Source of the DNA: Thermoplasmatota archaeon
GTDB lineage: Archaea > Thermoplasmatota > E2 > DHVEG-1
Assembly: GCA_030616985.1 (NCBI GenBank)
Contig: JAUWWG010000003.1
Coordinates: 1 to 43,153, forward strand
Direction of reading: 5' to 3'
DNA length: 43,153 bases
Shown: positions 13,726-24,572 of the stretch, piece by piece
Position numbering within the stretch: the first letter of the stretch is position 1
Layout of the letters: every line of letters starts with the position of its first letter
Translations under genes and position numbers: made by a program
Notes under the pieces: generated by a model
The model's input: the letters and a program-made list of their open reading frames with translations, nothing else
Database searches by the model: none
What the model was told of the DNA's origin: nothing

Positions 13726-14439
13726 ATGAAACTTTGGAAAAGTAGTATATTATTTGTAAGCGTAGCTGTGATGTTGCTGTCAAGTATGGCCGTTTCAGCT
13801 GATAAAACAGAAAGTGATCCAACTGGAGATGTTGCTCATTGGGAGTACACCACGGGACATTGGGGATGGAACTATAATATTGGAAATAAACCAAACATTG
13901 ATATTACAGAAATGTCTTATTCTGTGAGTGGGGATCAATTGACTCTAACGCTTAAGGTTGTTGGCACTATTCAAAGCTCTGGATTTAATTTGTATTGGGG
14001 TTATTTGAATACTTCAGACGCAACTTATTGGATGTCCTGGATGGAAGGCGAAGGTGGGGGAATGGCTATGAACATCGAAGAAGGATCAATGCAATGGGAT
14101 TTAGAACCTGAAATAGCTACTTCTGGTAACACTCTCTCTTGTACATTTGATGTAGTAGGCAGTGATTATTCAAATGCAGAATTATGGGGTTATGCTACTG
14201 AACATGTCGAAGCCGGTGATATGACTTCGGAATGGTGGGGCGATTGGGCTCCTGAAACTTATTCTCCATATTGGGAAGAAGGCGGAGACGGTGATGATGA
14301 CGATGACGAAGATGGAGACGGAGATGGTGACGACGGAAATGGCGGATCATCCGGATCTTCGGGAACCCCCGGATTCGAGGCAGTAGCTGTGTTGGTAGCA
14401 GTTGGTATAGCATTAATTATTTTGAGAAGAAGAAAATAA
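13726..14439 (+). CDS. Secreted surface protein with PGF-CTERM sorting signal
   Basis: The 237-residue precursor has a signal peptide (residues 1-25, ending SMAVSA before Asp26). A beta-rich ectodomain of about 160 residues follows, with many Trp and Gly (for example HWGWNYNIGNKPNIDITEMS). Next is a low-complexity Asp/Gly/Ser linker (about residues 187-213), then a C-terminal tripartite signal: PGF at about 215-217, a hydrophobic span VAVLVAVGIALIIL, and RRRK. That tail is the PGF-CTERM type recognised by archaeosortase A in other euryarchaea, which links the processed protein to a prenyl lipid. No archaeosortase gene is in this window. The ectodomain family is unknown. The acidic linker resembles the surface-spacing linkers of S-layer proteins. 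Confidence 0.88.
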   Translation: MKLWKSSILFVSVAVMLLSSMAVSADKTESDPTGDVAHWEYTTGHWGWNYNIGNKPNIDITEMSYSVSGDQLTLTLKVVGTIQSSGFNLYWGYLNTSDATYWMSWMEGEGGGMAMNIEEGSMQWDLEPEIATSGNTLSCTFDVVGSDYSNAELWGYATEHVEAGDMTSEWWGDWAPETYSPYWEEGGDGDDDDDEDGDGDGDDGNGGSSGSSGTPGFEAVAVLVAVGIALIILRRRK

Positions 14440-16580: not shown

Positions 16581-18749
16581 CTATCTTTTGGATGATGGAG
16601 GTGGGGGTACATAGTAATCTTGGCCGTTGTAGCCGTCAAAACCCTTGCCTTCTTCATCAGTGATCATACCCCTCTTTCTCTTCCTTTTCTTCCTAATAAT
16701 ATAGATGACCACGACCAAGATAATTGTTATTATCAAACTTATTATGCATGGCATAAAAAGCCCCACAATAAAAAGAGCAGATGGGATAATCTTGCACGAA
16801 ACAGTGTCCATGAGGCCAAACTCTGAAGTGCCGAATGTAATCTCAATATATTCTCTTCCATCATCGGTTTTTTTTACCACTGCTTTTTCTAGGGTGTCGT
16901 TCACCACCACAGTTGTACCATGTGGAAAAATCATTTTATATGTAACATTTTGACTTTGAATTCCAGTAAAGTTAAAACTTTGATAGGATATCTCAAATTT
17001 TGGAGGCAAAAAAGAAATGTCAAATGAGATGGGATAGGAATTGTGGGCATATGAGACAACTTCAACAGGCATAAGCGCATCCATATTTGCAATATCCTCA
17101 TCCCAATCTAAAGATTCGTCAAAAGCATCTATGTCAACAGATCCGTCAATTTCTGGCAACTTCAATATATTCATTAACCTACTTTCAAAAAGTTGTTTTT
17201 CGCCATTTAAAAAAATAGCTGTATCGTCTTCACCAAACACTTTTTCTTCCACGCATAATCTAAAAGCATCCGCGTTCAAATAATCTAGAGATATTTTTTC
17301 TGGCAGACTAAATTCATCCGGTACGACTGTCACACCATACTTTCGAGTTTCCTGCAAGAACAAGCCGAGATTCATCTCAGTTCCGCCGGTAAAAAAACTA
17401 AGTAAGTTCAGATCTGCGCTGCTTACTTCAATTTCCACAAGAGTATCTATCTTCTCATTGGAATAACTAGTAGCAATATCTGATTCAAACTTACCGGAAA
17501 TGGGATTACCCTGATTCCAGTTATATACGTTTTCCCCATCTAGATATAGGTTATCTGGTAAATACAGTGTACCATTAAACTGGTAGCCAATGTTGTCAAG
17601 ATTGCCACCAAAATTAACATCATTGGCAGAGATGTTTGCCTGTGCACCAGCATTCACAAGCCCAAACAGTGATCTACTGGTAATATTACATATCTGCAAA
17701 TTTACATTACTATCTGTACTTATTGCTCTTATGGGCGGGTTACTATCCATATTTGCCGTTTCATATGGTGTCAAGCAATCCGTAGTAGTGTTATTACCCC
17801 ATCTAAATGTTGTGTCAAGCGTTTGATTGAACGAGGAGTTTTCAATTTTTGATATTGCTTTTTCTTCGATGGTTTTTATTGTTTTGTTATAAAGATCTTC
17901 CCAGGAACTAAAACCGTTGTCTATAAATAATCTAAAACCGTCCGAAGGTATGATTTCTAGATCAGTAATGAAATCTGGTACGATGTCATAATCTCCAATA
18001 TCTATGCTCTTGGCTAAAATATTTGTTGTTAAGATTGTTTGTTTTTCGTCTCTACTATCCAAAACAAATTCTAGATGGATGTCTTCCGTGTCTAATCTGG
18101 GTGTTGTCGGATCTTCCAGTTTTATCGATATCTCTGCTAATTTACTGGGGTGTTCTCCATCTCCATTTTTTACTTCCCACTGTATTCTGTTGTTTTCTAC
18201 AGATCCTGTCGTTCGTTTGTATCCTATGGATTCAGATAGTATGATTGTATATGTATTGTTCCATCCTTGTTCTGTTTGAAGATTAAAAGTGTAATTTACT
18301 ATTGCACCTATGTCCAGCACGCCGTTTATGAATTTTTCAGAATTTACTGATTCATTTAAGTTAAAGAAAGAAGAGGTTAGTTCCACATTAAAATCTTCAT
18401 TAAATTTGTCTCCATCAAAGGTAGGCATTGTGAAGTTCAAAATATTGGCATTTGCAAAAATTTCTTCTAATTGCTCTTCCAACATTAGATAAAGTTTAAG
18501 TCTGAAAGCACCTAGCTCTTGCTCAGATGCACTTTTAATTCCTGCGGCGTCATATGTTTTATCCGTAGTCAATTGGTAGACGTCCATAGCAATGTCAACA
18601 TTTAGATTTGTTCCAGTTACAAATTCAATATCGATGCTTGCATTCACCTTGTTTTCTATTTCATCTTCCGCAATTGCTACGTTAACTAATAGAAATGAAG
18701 ATAAGAGCAGTACAACTAATATTATATCTAGTATCTTACATAAACGCAT
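16581..18749 (-). CDS. Large membrane-anchored surface protein
   Basis: The 722-residue product has a signal peptide (CKILDIILVVLLLSSFLLVN, then VAIA before EDEIE), an ectodomain of about 630 residues, one membrane span near the C-terminus (LFMPCIISLIITIILVVVIY) and a short cytoplasmic tail that is strongly basic and then ends with PPPPSSKR. The ectodomain is rich in Asn, Asp and beta-type segments and holds many N-x-S/T sites, so it is a likely substrate of the AglB encoded nearby. I recognise no domain in it. A GTG at 18758 is also in frame; the ATG at 18749 starts directly at the signal peptide. It converges with the reductase gene, leaving 15 bases between them. Confidence 0.75.
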   Translation of the reverse strand: MRLCKILDIILVVLLLSSFLLVNVAIAEDEIENKVNASIDIEFVTGTNLNVDIAMDVYQLTTDKTYDAAGIKSASEQELGAFRLKLYLMLEEQLEEIFANANILNFTMPTFDGDKFNEDFNVELTSSFFNLNESVNSEKFINGVLDIGAIVNYTFNLQTEQGWNNTYTIILSESIGYKRTTGSVENNRIQWEVKNGDGEHPSKLAEISIKLEDPTTPRLDTEDIHLEFVLDSRDEKQTILTTNILAKSIDIGDYDIVPDFITDLEIIPSDGFRLFIDNGFSSWEDLYNKTIKTIEEKAISKIENSSFNQTLDTTFRWGNNTTTDCLTPYETANMDSNPPIRAISTDSNVNLQICNITSRSLFGLVNAGAQANISANDVNFGGNLDNIGYQFNGTLYLPDNLYLDGENVYNWNQGNPISGKFESDIATSYSNEKIDTLVEIEVSSADLNLLSFFTGGTEMNLGLFLQETRKYGVTVVPDEFSLPEKISLDYLNADAFRLCVEEKVFGEDDTAIFLNGEKQLFESRLMNILKLPEIDGSVDIDAFDESLDWDEDIANMDALMPVEVVSYAHNSYPISFDISFLPPKFEISYQSFNFTGIQSQNVTYKMIFPHGTTVVVNDTLEKAVVKKTDDGREYIEITFGTSEFGLMDTVSCKIIPSALFIVGLFMPCIISLIITIILVVVIYIIRKKRKRKRGMITDEEGKGFDGYNGQDYYVPPPPSSKR

Positions 18750-18786
18750 TGCATCCACATCCGACCTGACAAACTAAACATATGAC

Positions 18787-18836: not shown

Positions 18837-19712
18837 ATGTGTTATACTATGTATGTTATTGGTGGAACGGCATCTAAAACAACTGCAGAAGATTTATCCA
18901 AAAAGCAACAAATCCCTCTAGCTAGATTAATTTCTAAGCGTTTCCCAGATGGTGAGTTATATATACGTATTTTAGATGATATTTCTGGGGAAGATGTAAT
19001 AATCATACAAACTACATATCCTGATCCAAATATTGTGGAACTATTTCTATTGCAGGATGCGGTAAAAGAAGCAGGTGCCAAAAAGATTACAGTTATTATC
19101 CCCTATTTGGGATACAGTAGGCAGGATAAAAAATTTGAGAAAGGAGAACCTATAAGTGCAAAAGTAATTGCAGCTCTTATCAGTTTAAACGCTGATGAAG
19201 TGATTACGATTGATCCACATAAGGAACACATACTTGATTTTTTTTCTATCCCTGCATTTAGCTGCTCTGCCGTTCCAGAATTGGCAGAGTTCCTTAAGAA
19301 AAAGGATGTTGATCTGGTACTCGCTCCAGACAAGGGGGCATTAGATAGGGCTAAGCAAGCATCGACTATCATAGGGTGTGATTTTGACTACATGGAGAAG
19401 ATTCGTATTGATGGTACAACAGTGGAGATAAAACCAAAGAACCTTAATGCTCAGGATAAAAACGTTGCAATAATCGACGATATCATTTCCACTGGTGGGA
19501 CAATGGCTAAATCTATAGCGGAACTTAAAAAGCATGGGGCAAAAAAAATCTTTGTGGCATGCACCCATGGCTTGTTTGCCGGGGGAGCTGTAAAAAAACT
19601 TGTTTCGGCCGGATGCAATGAAATTATATCTACGGATACTATAGTAAGTGAGTTTAGCAAAGTCAAAATTTCGCCATGTATTTTGCAGTTATTATTATCT
19701 AAACGTGTTTAG
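18837..19712 (+). CDS. prs: Ribose-phosphate pyrophosphokinase
   Basis: The 291-residue enzyme makes PRPP from ribose 5-phosphate and ATP for nucleotide, histidine and tryptophan synthesis. Motifs: ARLISKRFPDGELYIRI, PYLGYSRQDKKFEKGEPIS, the metal/ATP site ITIDPHKEHILDFF, and the PRPP loop VAIIDDIISTGGTMAKSI. It is of the shorter archaeal class. An internal ATG at 18849 (MYVIGGTASK) matches the usual family start better than 18837, so the first four residues are uncertain. It is followed by aglB after 67 bases with its own TATA box. Confidence 0.96.
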   Translation: MCYTMYVIGGTASKTTAEDLSKKQQIPLARLISKRFPDGELYIRILDDISGEDVIIIQTTYPDPNIVELFLLQDAVKEAGAKKITVIIPYLGYSRQDKKFEKGEPISAKVIAALISLNADEVITIDPHKEHILDFFSIPAFSCSAVPELAEFLKKKDVDLVLAPDKGALDRAKQASTIIGCDFDYMEKIRIDGTTVEIKPKNLNAQDKNVAIIDDIISTGGTMAKSIAELKKHGAKKIFVACTHGLFAGGAVKKLVSAGCNEIISTDTIVSEFSKVKISPCILQLLLSKRV

Positions 19713-19779: not shown

Positions 19780-22700
19780 ATGCGAAAAAGAGTACAGAGA
19801 AAGAGTAGATCTGCGATAGATGAACCGAAACACATGGTGCAAAGAACAAAGATAGAAAAAAAGCCGCTGGGCGTTAAAAAAAATTGGGCGGTCGCAATAT
19901 CTCTAGTTGGTATATTTCTTCTGGTATTGCTTCTTAACTCATATTTTAATGCCGCCAGTGGAATTTCAATTAACGATGATGGGGACGGCCTTGATAAGTT
20001 CTATTTATCTGGCCCTGATCCTTACTATAACATGAGGCTTGTAGACGAAACGCTTTATGGAGAAAATGCAGGACACTATCCATTTTATTCTGGAGATGAC
20101 CCGCTTCTTAATTATCCTCTCGAAAAATCTGGTGGAAGACCTCCGTTGTTTAATATGATGGCTATAGGTTTCAGCAGGGTTCTAGTGCCATTCATGGATG
20201 AGGTTGATGCAGTCGGTTATTCTATGCAGTTTATACCAGCCCTTTTTGGCGCTCTACTTATATTTCCTGTTTATTTCATTGGTAAAACACTTTTTAATAA
20301 GAAAGCAGGACTTATAGGGGCATTGTTTATAGCGCTCATTCCTCTTCATCTTGGCTCAGGGCACGGTTCTGCATATTCTCTATTCGATCACGACTCTTTC
20401 AACCTTTTGCTGTATTTCTTGACATTTATGTTTCTCGTTAAAAGCATCAAAGAGAAAGATACAACTAGATCTGTATTATATGCTCTTCTTGGGGGCATTC
20501 CTCTCGCTGCTTTATCTATGGTGTGGGTAGAAGCTCGATATCTCTATGTCATAATCGCAGTTTATGCAATCTTACAAATGATTGTAGACATTTTCACTAG
20601 CAAAATAGAAATAAAAGTATTTAGAACCACTTCGATTTGTATGCTTTTTGGGTATGCCCTTTCCTTACCGGTTCTTATGGCAAAATGGGGTGGTTTTAAA
20701 CCAGATCTTATTTTATTTTTGTGTTTGGGAGTAGTAGTTTTTGGTATGGTGTATTATGCATTTGATAGGATTAAACTTCCATGGACTATTTCAATACCTA
20801 CTGTATTCTGCGTTGGCGGTATTGGACTCATTTTCCTATATTTCATTAAAGATATTTCGTCAAGCATCCCACTTTTTTCCTCGCTTTCCCAGATCTCTGA
20901 AATATTGTATGGTGCAGGAATTTACGGTAGTAAAGTATCGATGACCATTGCTGAGGCAAGCACCTATGAGATTAGTCGTACTGTGATGTCGTTTGGCCCT
21001 GCTCTTTATTGGCTTGGTTGGATAGGATTTGTGTTCCTTGCCTATCATTATTATAAGGGCAGTCAACGTAGAGATTATCTTTTCATACTTGTGTTGTTTC
21101 TTTTACAAATGTGGCTTACCGGTGTTGCCGGTCGTTTTCTAAATGATCTTGTTCCAGTGATTGCTGTACTTGGTGGTTGGATAGTTGTGGTTGTTGTAGA
21201 TAAAATCGACTACAAGCAAATGTTAAGGAATATTCGAAGTGCAGGTGGGGGAATTCACGGTCTTAGAAAAGGAGTAAAATTCCTTCATATTTTTGGGATT
21301 TTTTTTATTGCATTTTTAGTCATATTTCCAAATGCATATCTTGCTTTTGATGCAGCGACTCCAATTACAGAAAAAGAAGATGTGTTTGGGGACCTTCCTA
21401 GTGGGGCATTTGGGTTAGGACACGGCAAGGAAGGCTACTGGATAGATGCATATGGTTGGTTAAAAGAGCAAGATACTGACATCGATGACTTCGCGGAAAG
21501 ACCTGCTTTCATTTCATGGTGGGATTACGGTTTCTATGAATCTGCTATTGGAGATCACCCTACTGTGGCTGACAACTTCCAGGATGGAATTCCTCCTGCG
21601 GCTAATTTCCATACTTCAACTAGTGAAGAAGCAGCAGTTGCAGTTTGGATAGTAAGGCTGATGGAGGGAAATGTTAAAGATAATGGCGGTGTACTTTCAG
21701 TTGATGTTGTACTTGCGTTAGAAAAACATTTGGGTGAGAATGATACATCTAATATAACAGGATGGGTAGAAGATCCTGAGAGTTCTCCTTCTTATGGTAT
21801 GCCTATAGGGGGAGAGTACAATGAGGAACTCGGTAAACAATATCCTGTTGGACAGCAGTGGCCAATGAATGCAGTTTATCATGACGTAACAGAAGTTCTT
21901 GTAAACGAATTAGATGATGAAGGAATTACTTGGCTTTACCGCGATATTCAAGAGATTACTGGTTATAGCATTCGCTATTATGGTGTTGAAGGTTACGATA
22001 AACAAATTTTCAACATATTTGGCTTTTTGGCTGATAAAAGTCTGCTTCTAGTGGCAGGTGGTGGCGTTTACAATCCAGAGGATGACTATGTATTGGTAAA
22101 ATTTGTTACACGGGGTGGAACCGAATTAACATTTGAAGACCTAAGCAATTTAACTGACCAGCAATTAATGGCAGATCCTCCGGTTAGTACAAAACAATAC
22201 TTCAAGGATGCATACTTTGACACAATGTTTTATAAGACATATGTCGGATTTTCAGAGGGGGAATCCGGTAGTAAAAGCGAGCCAAACTATCAATTGCCTT
22301 GTATGGATATGAAACACTTTTATGCCGAATTTATCTCGAATATATCAAAATACGCGTATTATAGCGGTAAAAGTGCCGTAGTAATTGCTAAATATTATGC
22401 TGGTGCCTTTGTAAACGGATCGATTTCATTTATGGGTGAACCTTTGGATGCGCAAGTAGTTGTCCAAAAAAACATAACCCATTATGGAACCGAAATACCT
22501 ATGGATCATGATAAAAATGATACAACTAATGGAAATTTCAGTGTTATAGTACCGGCAGGTGATATTCAAATTCAAATTAGAAGATATTCTGAGATTCAAT
22601 CATTATCATTTTCTATGAAAAACATAACATTTGACAGTACAACAGATCCAGAACTAGCTCCGATAACCGATGAGGAAGCCATGAGGATGGGGGGAGACTA

Positions 22701-23895
22701 TTACAGGACGTTGAATATATCCATAGAGCCAGCCGACGTAGAAGGATATATCTATGTAAATAATGATAATAATGATGTATATAACGTCTCTGTTGATGAA
22801 CCATTAAATGGCGTTTCGGTAGCCATACTCGGAATTCAGAATTTCGATCCCAATACGGGTCAACCGGCAAGTTATGATTATTCCAACATAAGGGAGCTCA
22901 CCACTAATGCTGATGGCTACTATAATGCTTCAGGGTTATTGCCTGGTTACTATGAAATAAGAGTTATTGAGGGTGATTACCTTCTCAAAGCCGAGATAAC
23001 ATCACTCTACTCGGGTAATACTTATTACAATGTATCAAAACCAGAATTCGCATCTGTTGAAGGAGCGATATATTTCGACGATAATCATAATGATGAATAT
23101 GATGCTGGAGAAGAGTTGGGCAATGTTGATGCGAAACTATTATATCAAAAGCTGGATGGAACGGACAAATTAGTATATTCAATTACGACTGATAGCAGCG
23201 GAAGCTACTCATTTACTTCATTGATACCAGGACAATACTATATCAATGCAACAAAAGGGACGGAATATGCGATAGAGGAACCGGTGAGATTAGCAGAAAA
23301 CCAGACATTAAAACTCAATGTATCAATAGATTATGCCACAATTTCAATTAGCGGATATACAAAATACAATGGCGCGGCTATAGAAAATATAACCATTGAA
23401 TTTAGGCCAGATGAAACTGTCGAGAATGGTACTGCTCAACGCGGAGAAGCATTATCTAATGGGGATGGTTGGTACACTGTCAAATTAATGCCAGGAAGCT
23501 ATAATGTGATAGTGGATTACAGTGGAGAACAGGGCATATATTCTGCTGAGGCGAGCTTGTATATCGGAATAGGTGAAGGGGCAAAGACATTTGATATTTC
23601 AATGGAAAAACAATCATTTACAGTTACGGGAGCCACAAAATATGCAGGTTCGAATGTAGGAAATCTTCCAATTACATTTTTACCAGAAACAAGCGTAGAA
23701 AACAATACCGCAGCATGGGCATCAACCGAGTCAAAAACTGACGGATCATATATAGTCGAACTAATGCCTGGAGAGTATACTGTGAGAGTCAGCTATACCG
23801 TAAATGAAAGCGGAGTAAAGGCGACATATAAATACGAGGGAGAACTAACTGTATCTGCCAATAGAGAGTATGAAATAGCTCTTACAAAAGAATAA
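19780..23895 (+). CDS. aglB: Oligosaccharyltransferase AglB with long Ig-like C-terminal array
   Basis: This 1371-residue STT3-family protein transfers lipid-linked glycan to Asn of N-x-S/T sites on exported proteins. A cytoplasmic basic N-terminus and about 13 membrane spans (residues 37-520) carry the first acidic motif SGPDPYYNMR (Asp80), DHD at 203-205 and the TIAE motif at 389-392. The sequon-reading WWDYG motif is at 580-584. Archaeal AglB is commonly about 800-1000 residues. Here the sequence continues through a beta domain from about 877 and then at least four carboxypeptidase-regulatory/SdrD-B-like modules starting near 986, 1091, 1188 and 1280. The last two are recognisably duplicates (GYTKYNGAAIENITIEF and GATKYAGSNVGNLPITF). 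They carry many sequons of their own. An AGGTGA ribosome binding site precedes the ATG. Confidence 0.96.
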   Translation: MRKRVQRKSRSAIDEPKHMVQRTKIEKKPLGVKKNWAVAISLVGIFLLVLLLNSYFNAASGISINDDGDGLDKFYLSGPDPYYNMRLVDETLYGENAGHYPFYSGDDPLLNYPLEKSGGRPPLFNMMAIGFSRVLVPFMDEVDAVGYSMQFIPALFGALLIFPVYFIGKTLFNKKAGLIGALFIALIPLHLGSGHGSAYSLFDHDSFNLLLYFLTFMFLVKSIKEKDTTRSVLYALLGGIPLAALSMVWVEARYLYVIIAVYAILQMIVDIFTSKIEIKVFRTTSICMLFGYALSLPVLMAKWGGFKPDLILFLCLGVVVFGMVYYAFDRIKLPWTISIPTVFCVGGIGLIFLYFIKDISSSIPLFSSLSQISEILYGAGIYGSKVSMTIAEASTYEISRTVMSFGPALYWLGWIGFVFLAYHYYKGSQRRDYLFILVLFLLQMWLTGVAGRFLNDLVPVIAVLGGWIVVVVVDKIDYKQMLRNIRSAGGGIHGLRKGVKFLHIFGIFFIAFLVIFPNAYLAFDAATPITEKEDVFGDLPSGAFGLGHGKEGYWIDAYGWLKEQDTDIDDFAERPAFISWWDYGFYESAIGDHPTVADNFQDGIPPAANFHTSTSEEAAVAVWIVRLMEGNVKDNGGVLSVDVVLALEKHLGENDTSNITGWVEDPESSPSYGMPIGGEYNEELGKQYPVGQQWPMNAVYHDVTEVLVNELDDEGITWLYRDIQEITGYSIRYYGVEGYDKQIFNIFGFLADKSLLLVAGGGVYNPEDDYVLVKFVTRGGTELTFEDLSNLTDQQLMADPPVSTKQYFKDAYFDTMFYKTYVGFSEGESGSKSEPNYQLPCMDMKHFYAEFISNISKYAYYSGKSAVVIAKYYAGAFVNGSISFMGEPLDAQVVVQKNITHYGTEIPMDHDKNDTTNGNFSVIVPAGDIQIQIRRYSEIQSLSFSMKNITFDSTTDPELAPITDEEAMRMGGDYYRTLNISIEPADVEGYIYVNNDNNDVYNVSVDEPLNGVSVAILGIQNFDPNTGQPASYDYSNIRELTTNADGYYNASGLLPGYYEIRVIEGDYLLKAEITSLYSGNTYYNVSKPEFASVEGAIYFDDNHNDEYDAGEELGNVDAKLLYQKLDGTDKLVYSITTDSSGSYSFTSLIPGQYYINATKGTEYAIEEPVRLAENQTLKLNVSIDYATISISGYTKYNGAAIENITIEFRPDETVENGTAQRGEALSNGDGWYTVKLMPGSYNVIVDYSGEQGIYSAEASLYIGIGEGAKTFDISMEKQSFTVTGATKYAGSNVGNLPITFLPETSVENNTAAWASTESKTDGSYIVELMPGEYTVRVSYTVNESGVKATYKYEGELTVSANREYEIALTKE

Positions 23896-23963: not shown

Positions 23964-24572
23964 ATGCTTACATTGGATGAAGGTATAAAAGCGGTAGAGT
24001 TTGCAAGAAACATGGCAGAAGGGCATGTCAAAAATAAAAAAATACCGGCAATTGAATTAGATGAATTATTCGATCGGGAGAGAGGCGTGTTTGTAACCAT
24101 TCATACGCACCCAGCTCATGGACTTAGGGGGTGTATTGGCATACCTCAGCCAGTGATGTCTCTAAAAAAAGCTATAATTGAATCGGCAGTATCTGCCACA
24201 AGAGATCCTCGATTTTCCCCTATGCAGGAAAATGAGTTTGATAATGTAATAATAGAAGTAACAATTTTGACAAAACCAGAACTAATTGAGGTAAATCATC
24301 CAAAGGAATACCTTGATGACATTGAAATTGGAAGGGATGGATTAATTGTCGAGCAGGGGTTCTATAAGGGATTACTACTACCGCAAGTGCCAGTTGAACA
24401 AGAATGGGACAAAGAGGAATTCCTATCGCAAACATGTATGAAGGCAGGACTTTTACCTGATGCATGGTTTGAGAAAAACACAAAAATATATAGATTCAGT
24501 GGGCAGATTTTTACAGAAATTGAGCCAAGGGGAGAAATAAAGGAGAAGAACGTTGATGGATCTAACAGTTGA
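23964..24572 (+). CDS. AMMECR1 domain protein
   Basis: The 202-residue product carries the invariant AMMECR1 signature LRGCIGIP at residues 54-61. Other family features are GVFVTIHTHPAHG just before it, SATRDPRFSPMQENEFDNV, the ITILTKPE strand, and a C-terminal LLLPQVPVEQEWDKEEFLSQ. The family is near-universal in Archaea and in eukaryotes. Its biochemical role is not established; recent work elsewhere ties it to Memo-type partners, none of which is encoded here. The ATG at 23964 has little leader after a possible TATA element at 23931-23940. Its 3' end overlaps pyrC by 17 bases, so the two are translated together. Confidence 0.95.
   Translation: MLTLDEGIKAVEFARNMAEGHVKNKKIPAIELDELFDRERGVFVTIHTHPAHGLRGCIGIPQPVMSLKKAIIESAVSATRDPRFSPMQENEFDNVIIEVTILTKPELIEVNHPKEYLDDIEIGRDGLIVEQGFYKGLLLPQVPVEQEWDKEEFLSQTCMKAGLLPDAWFEKNTKIYRFSGQIFTEIEPRGEIKEKNVDGSNS

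Follow-up and report, generated by a model that had tools for sequence, protein, structure and literature searches.

A sequon-rich modular arm on the oligosaccharyltransferase AglB, shared across a lineage of Thermoplasmatota

The window, by which we mean the whole stretch of 43,153 nucleotides that was analysed, encodes an AglB of 1371 residues in a single unbroken frame (Table 1), and a genome search found no second AglB in the source genome. STT3 (PF02516) matched residues 75-370 with an E-value of 6e-19, over the cut-off, which identifies the GT-C membrane domain, and a PDB sequence search aligned the protein with solved AglB structures from residue 76 to about 613 (1e-10). The WWDYG motif of the extracytoplasmic domain was invariant among relatives, and acidic DXD-type and TIXE motifs were present (D80 in GPDPYYN, DHD at 203-205, TIAE at 389-392), all strongly conserved. 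The strict DK motif for the +2 Ser/Thr pocket, DXXKXXX(M/I), was not found in the window AglB; the conserved M816 and Y818, where a DK/MI variant could sit, may represent a variant motif. The score against archaeo_STT3 (TIGR04154), the NCBIfam model of an archaeosortase-associated subfamily, was 198.5 bits, below the cut-off of 450. As read from its sequence, the protein is a genuine AglB, an STT3-type oligosaccharyltransferase (OST) predicted to transfer glycans to N-X-S/T, and the AglB core recognised in an earlier note on this DNA is borne out by the STT3 match and the conserved catalytic motifs.

Table 1. Features of the aglB locus in window coordinates. The names PRPP synthetase-like and AMMECR1-like are presumed from sequence.
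Feature	Position	Strand	Residues	Remarks
PRPP synthetase-like gene	18837..19712	+		Conserved upstream neighbour, synteny anchor
aglB	19780..23895	+	1-1371	Oligosaccharyltransferase, 1371 aa; ORF, domain matches, genome search
N-terminal membrane region	19780..21339	+	1-520	Multi-pass; motifs DPYYNMR, DHD, TIAE; without sequons
Catalytic core	21340..22431	+	521-884	Extracytoplasmic; WWDYG at 580-584
M0	22432..22734	+	885-985	Beta domain conserved lineage-wide; five sequons
M1	22735..23049	+	986-1090	CarboxypepD_reg/SdrD_B-like; acidic loop NNDNNDVYN at 994
M2	23050..23337	+	1091-1186	Acidic loop DDNHNDEYDAGEE at 1100; conserved sequons N1174/N1180 near end
M3	23338..23613	+	1187-1278	Beta module, old paralog of M4
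M4	23614..23892	+	1279-1371	Beta module and C-terminal end
AMMECR1-like gene	23964..24572	+		Downstream neighbour, also conserved; its synteny speaks against a join made in assembly

In the window's family, the gene order FAD enzyme, 725-aa protein, PRPP synthetase, aglB, AMMECR1 and amidohydrolase is conserved. The 725-aa exported protein (16581-18758, minus strand), which keeps its place two genes upstream of aglB across the whole family and is a possible AglB partner, has an N-terminal signal or helix, a helix near its C-terminus, a Pro-rich end and 16 sequons versus 7.9 expected; it had no Pfam or NCBIfam match. A 237-aa surface protein, also in the window (13726-14439, plus strand), carries a PGF-CTERM/Heimdall-CTERM sorting end, and an archaeosortase-type system is therefore expected.

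Downstream of the catalytic core, the earlier note had placed at least four beta modules starting at residues 986, 1091, 1188 and 1280; we located them at 986, about 1091, 1187 and 1279, and found one further beta domain, M0, ahead of M1. M0 is probably a peripheral (P-type) AglB domain. CarboxypepD_reg matched the window AglB in four stretches (2.4e-20) and SdrD_B in two (1.5e-12), with M2 giving the best match to these models. PF13620 and PF17210 scored above their curated Pfam cut-offs in the window protein, and each matched all of 32 tails at E ≤ 0.01. In AlphaFold models, the tail alone was all-beta with a pLDDT of 95.1, each of the four modules folding beta-rich, and the ectodomain (residues 521-1371) reached 91.6. 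Foldseek matched the tail to CnaB/SdrD-B and pilin repeats (Bacillus anthracis TIE, BcpA, PitA and the SdrD B repeats), with GBS52 a further fold match of the models, so that the modules are beta-sandwiches by fold match rather than by a strand-by-strand count. No membrane helix was found downstream of M4.

The lineage comparison found the AglB core in 57 of 60 relatives and at least two in-frame modules after M0 in 46 of 47 complete frames (our own count, window included); L069 carries none. The source genome is a fragmented draft of 142 contigs, and an assembly error near 22700 could in principle have fused aglB to a second gene, the objection that the earlier note had raised against its own reading. 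An identical junction in tens of independent genomes, some of them single-contig, and flanking genes that are unchanged among relatives rule this out, leaving it practically no probability; the tail recurs in frame beside conserved neighbours, and the join is therefore real and not an artefact. The arm is thus shared lineage-wide. The same note had also regarded its reading as refuted if all AglBs of known length had the modules: the characterised AglBs are too short for the tail, and nearly all of this lineage carry it. Two irregular loci were seen among the relatives. In L086, aglB is split into two parts with about 190 kb of a single contig (G002:C1) between them, probably an assembly fault, and L065 is an archaeal aglB locus inside a genome that bears the label Candidatus Omnitrophota bacterium, which probably reflects contamination.

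Module number changes in steps of about 95 residues. In the window's family, four modules is the number in most genomes, against three in seven complete ones and five in L043; three is the number in the window's order and two in most of its class. The nearest complete relatives of the window AglB have only three, as does its whole subclade except the window AglB itself, which implies either that the four-module state was kept here while several losses occurred or that it was regained; the sole AglB from the same genus is truncated, its sequence stopping at residue 738. M3 and M4 had been called clear duplicates, and their identity (34/89, Z = 21.5 against 300 shuffles) agrees, as does that of a second duplicate pair, M1 and M2 (28/89, Z = 9.7 against 300 shuffles). 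The M3/M4 duplication is nevertheless old and not local to this genome, since in the module tree each groups with its own orthologs (52% and 54% identity) rather than with its partner (38%), and a recent duplication is rejected. There was no signal that the last module of the three-module relatives is an M3/M4 hybrid.

Across eight close pairs, dN/dS ranged over 0.08-0.30 for the tail, compared with 0.06-0.18 for the core. The tail is therefore under purifying selection throughout, at values higher than in the core, and this, together with a freely changing module number, means that no single fixed arm length is needed. A near-neutral accretion of domains, in which recombination adds and drops repeats with no specific function, would account for copy numbers of 2-5, for a tail that diverges faster than the core and for the several gains or losses within one family. 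It is nonetheless very unlikely, given purifying selection along the whole tail, its near-invariant residues and sequons, and the retention of the arm in nearly all relatives. An acidic SdrD_B-type loop was present in 52 of 53 tails. The window AglB has it in M1 and M2 only, and M2 aligned with the SdrD B repeats across the loop; by this resemblance, both loops are predicted to bind calcium and the arm is possibly calcium-stiffened.

The earlier note's remark that the modules carry sequons holds: residues 986-1371 contain 10, versus 4.8 expected (P = 0.011), and the five in M0 compare with 0.9 expected. Over the relatives, N-X-S/T was counted 706 times in the tails versus 272 expected from shuffled sequence (2.6-fold), 254 versus 65 in M0 and 296 versus 142 in the ectodomain core, with no enrichment in the membrane region (90 versus 97, ratio 0.93). 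Counts over relatives are not independent, and the reversed motif, which controls for kinship, occurred 293 times in the tails, close to the expected number. In the source genome, the sequon ratio was 0.95 for cytosolic proteins and 1.4-2.0 for exported ones, an indirect sign of glycan transfer to N-X-S/T. Near-fixed sites included N1174 (41/43), N1180 (40/43) and N1084 (49/57). The arm is thus probably glycosylated, as judged from its sequons. The AglB of Haloferax volcanii carries N-glycans of its own, at two sites, and eukaryotic STT3 is N-glycosylated too (PMC8241124); the strong sequon enrichment together with the H. volcanii precedent makes it plausible, as had been suggested, that AglB glycosylates its own arm. 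The source genome also encodes a 2508-aa exported protein with 133 sequons (L152:4100-11623, minus strand), an S-layer candidate.

Whether the AglB is enlarged depends on the comparison. Characterised AglBs have 591-1054 residues (PMC3703281, PMC5131992), and against these the description in the earlier note stands; within the phylum, where frames of 2,000-3,300 residues are common, 1371 residues is small. A survey covering 245 genomes of the phylum showed such frames in at least 19 families, several of them in single-contig genomes; they exceed the window AglB by about 700 to 1,850 residues. The long forms scanned contained two to six CarboxypepD_reg stretches, with CARDB- and FixG_C-like domains in places, and their tails held 617 sequons versus 229 expected (reversed motif 237). 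All fifteen long AglBs readable to the end finish with a membrane helix and a basic tail, and no complete AglB of the window's class has a C-terminal membrane helix. In the AglB core tree, a single change separates short from long forms (support 97/95); the tree has no outgroup and so does not give the direction, gain or loss of the giant form. The idea that the distal half of the long AglBs is encoded elsewhere in the window's genome was rejected, since its best matches there were short generic domains and the tail of the AglB.

Three long AglBs of about 3,230 residues (L180, L181 and L182) have some 400 extra N-terminal residues, with added predicted membrane helices, before the STT3 core. 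Another, a 2377-aa AglB (L190:1736-2152, minus strand), ends in MPGFEALGLVSSLAAAALLLGRRRR, which by eye resembles a PGF-CTERM signal. It alone among the long AglBs was suggestive in this respect, with a score below the cut-off (the query had wrong residues at its start, outside the matched part); if the signal is real, the AglB enzyme itself would be archaeosortase-sorted. The phylum as a whole has arm-bearing and giant AglBs, a trait of which no description was found in the literature searched, most subscription journals lying outside its scope.

The modules could alternatively be extra P-type units packed on the central core, stabilising it and not reaching outward. This main rival is in our judgement unlikely, although several observations agree with it. 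Known AglBs have beta-rich P1/P2 units after the core, for which a role in thermal stability was suggested (PMC3703281), and in the AglB-L of Pyrococcus and Archaeoglobus such units have been proposed to act in this way; M0 occupies the place of P1. A pTM of 0.73 for the ectodomain is rather more than one would expect of a flexible chain, and does not discriminate a rod from modules folded back on the core. The range of two to five modules among relatives is easier to reconcile with independent units on a string than with a shell that is packed and fixed, the top structural matches are the strung repeats of pilins and MSCRAMMs, and the long forms extend the chain much further still.

An extracellular modular arm with sequons is well supported, and we favour its interpretation as a lineage-wide, sequon-rich AglB arm acting in cis as a built-in accessory subunit (probability roughly 0.55). 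The outward location of the tail follows from AglB topology. Beyond the catalytic core, the extracytoplasmic part of the enzyme extends as an arm built of prealbumin/CnaB-type modules. This arm would be exported together with the catalytic domain and glycosylated by AglB, either in cis or by a neighbouring enzyme. Glycans, along with calcium bound in the M1 and M2 loops, would make it a stiff, protease-resistant rod that could space the enzyme and contact a cell-envelope partner, the S-layer or the secretion machinery. Holding the enzyme near the S-layer and presenting substrate, the other roles that the earlier note put forward, are conjectural. Related lineages have much longer arms, led back to the membrane by the C-terminal helix, and the window's clade the membrane-proximal modules only.

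In eukaryotes, NOMO contributes its set of prealbumin-like domains to the BOS complex, which belongs to the translocon (PMC11186639), and the arm might likewise, in cis, attach AglB to the channel for protein export. In a PDB sequence search, the tail profile matched human NOMO2 best (3.4e-20, over several domains), as did the single window tail (1.2e-5) and the distal modules of long forms (3.7e-6); Pfam NOMO domain models matched 8 to 28 of the 32 tails. However, domains of the CarboxypepD_reg/prealbumin kind are promiscuous and the PDB holds few arrays of them, so that NOMO may lead by default, and bacterial pilins rank above it in the structure search. Given the promiscuity of the superfamily, we treat the match as a lead without claiming descent, and we consider docking of this kind improbable. 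A broader proposal, which we hold only tentatively and at somewhat less than even odds, is that Thermoplasmatota use giant single-chain OSTs, in which NOMO-like prealbumin arrays, lengthening AglB to 2,000-3,300 residues with a second membrane anchor in many families, would serve as in-cis accessory subunits of N-glycosylation, with the window's clade shortened and free-ended.

Among known systems, NOMO2 of the eukaryotic ER has a prealbumin-like domain array, as in the window tail, but is a separate protein of about twelve domains not fused to STT3; the tail is fused to AglB, has four modules and resembles NOMO2 in its domains, at the level of the shared superfamily. The SdrD B repeats and CnaB pilins share the module fold and, for SdrD B, the acidic loop, yet belong to bacterial adhesins and pilins with no attached enzyme, whereas the window AglB has no sortase anchoring. 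The long Thermoplasmatota AglBs (2088 aa in L172, 2187 in L174 and 3226 in L180) share the core and have similarly sequon-rich beta arrays, and for most of them the alignment to the model of the window's class extends through the first modules of the tail; they differ in their far larger number of modules and in a membrane helix with a basic end at the C-terminus, neither of which is seen in the window's clade. Archaeoglobus fulgidus and Pyrococcus AglB-L (PDB 3waj, 5gmy, 7e9s) share with the window AglB the membrane GT-C core, WWDYG, the TIXE-type motif and an extracytoplasmic central core with beta-rich peripheral units behind it, but the 868-aa A. fulgidus enzyme has one such unit where the window AglB has five beta domains. 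Haloferax volcanii AglB (1054 aa) is likewise a single-subunit OST and, compared by length, is about 320 residues shorter than the window AglB (PMC5131992). The archaeal OST is described as a compact single subunit of 590-1050 residues; a phylum with arm-bearing and giant forms would raise the question of what the eukaryotic accessory subunits replaced, and the natural length variants, from two to five modules up to the giants, are material for testing the role of an OST arm.
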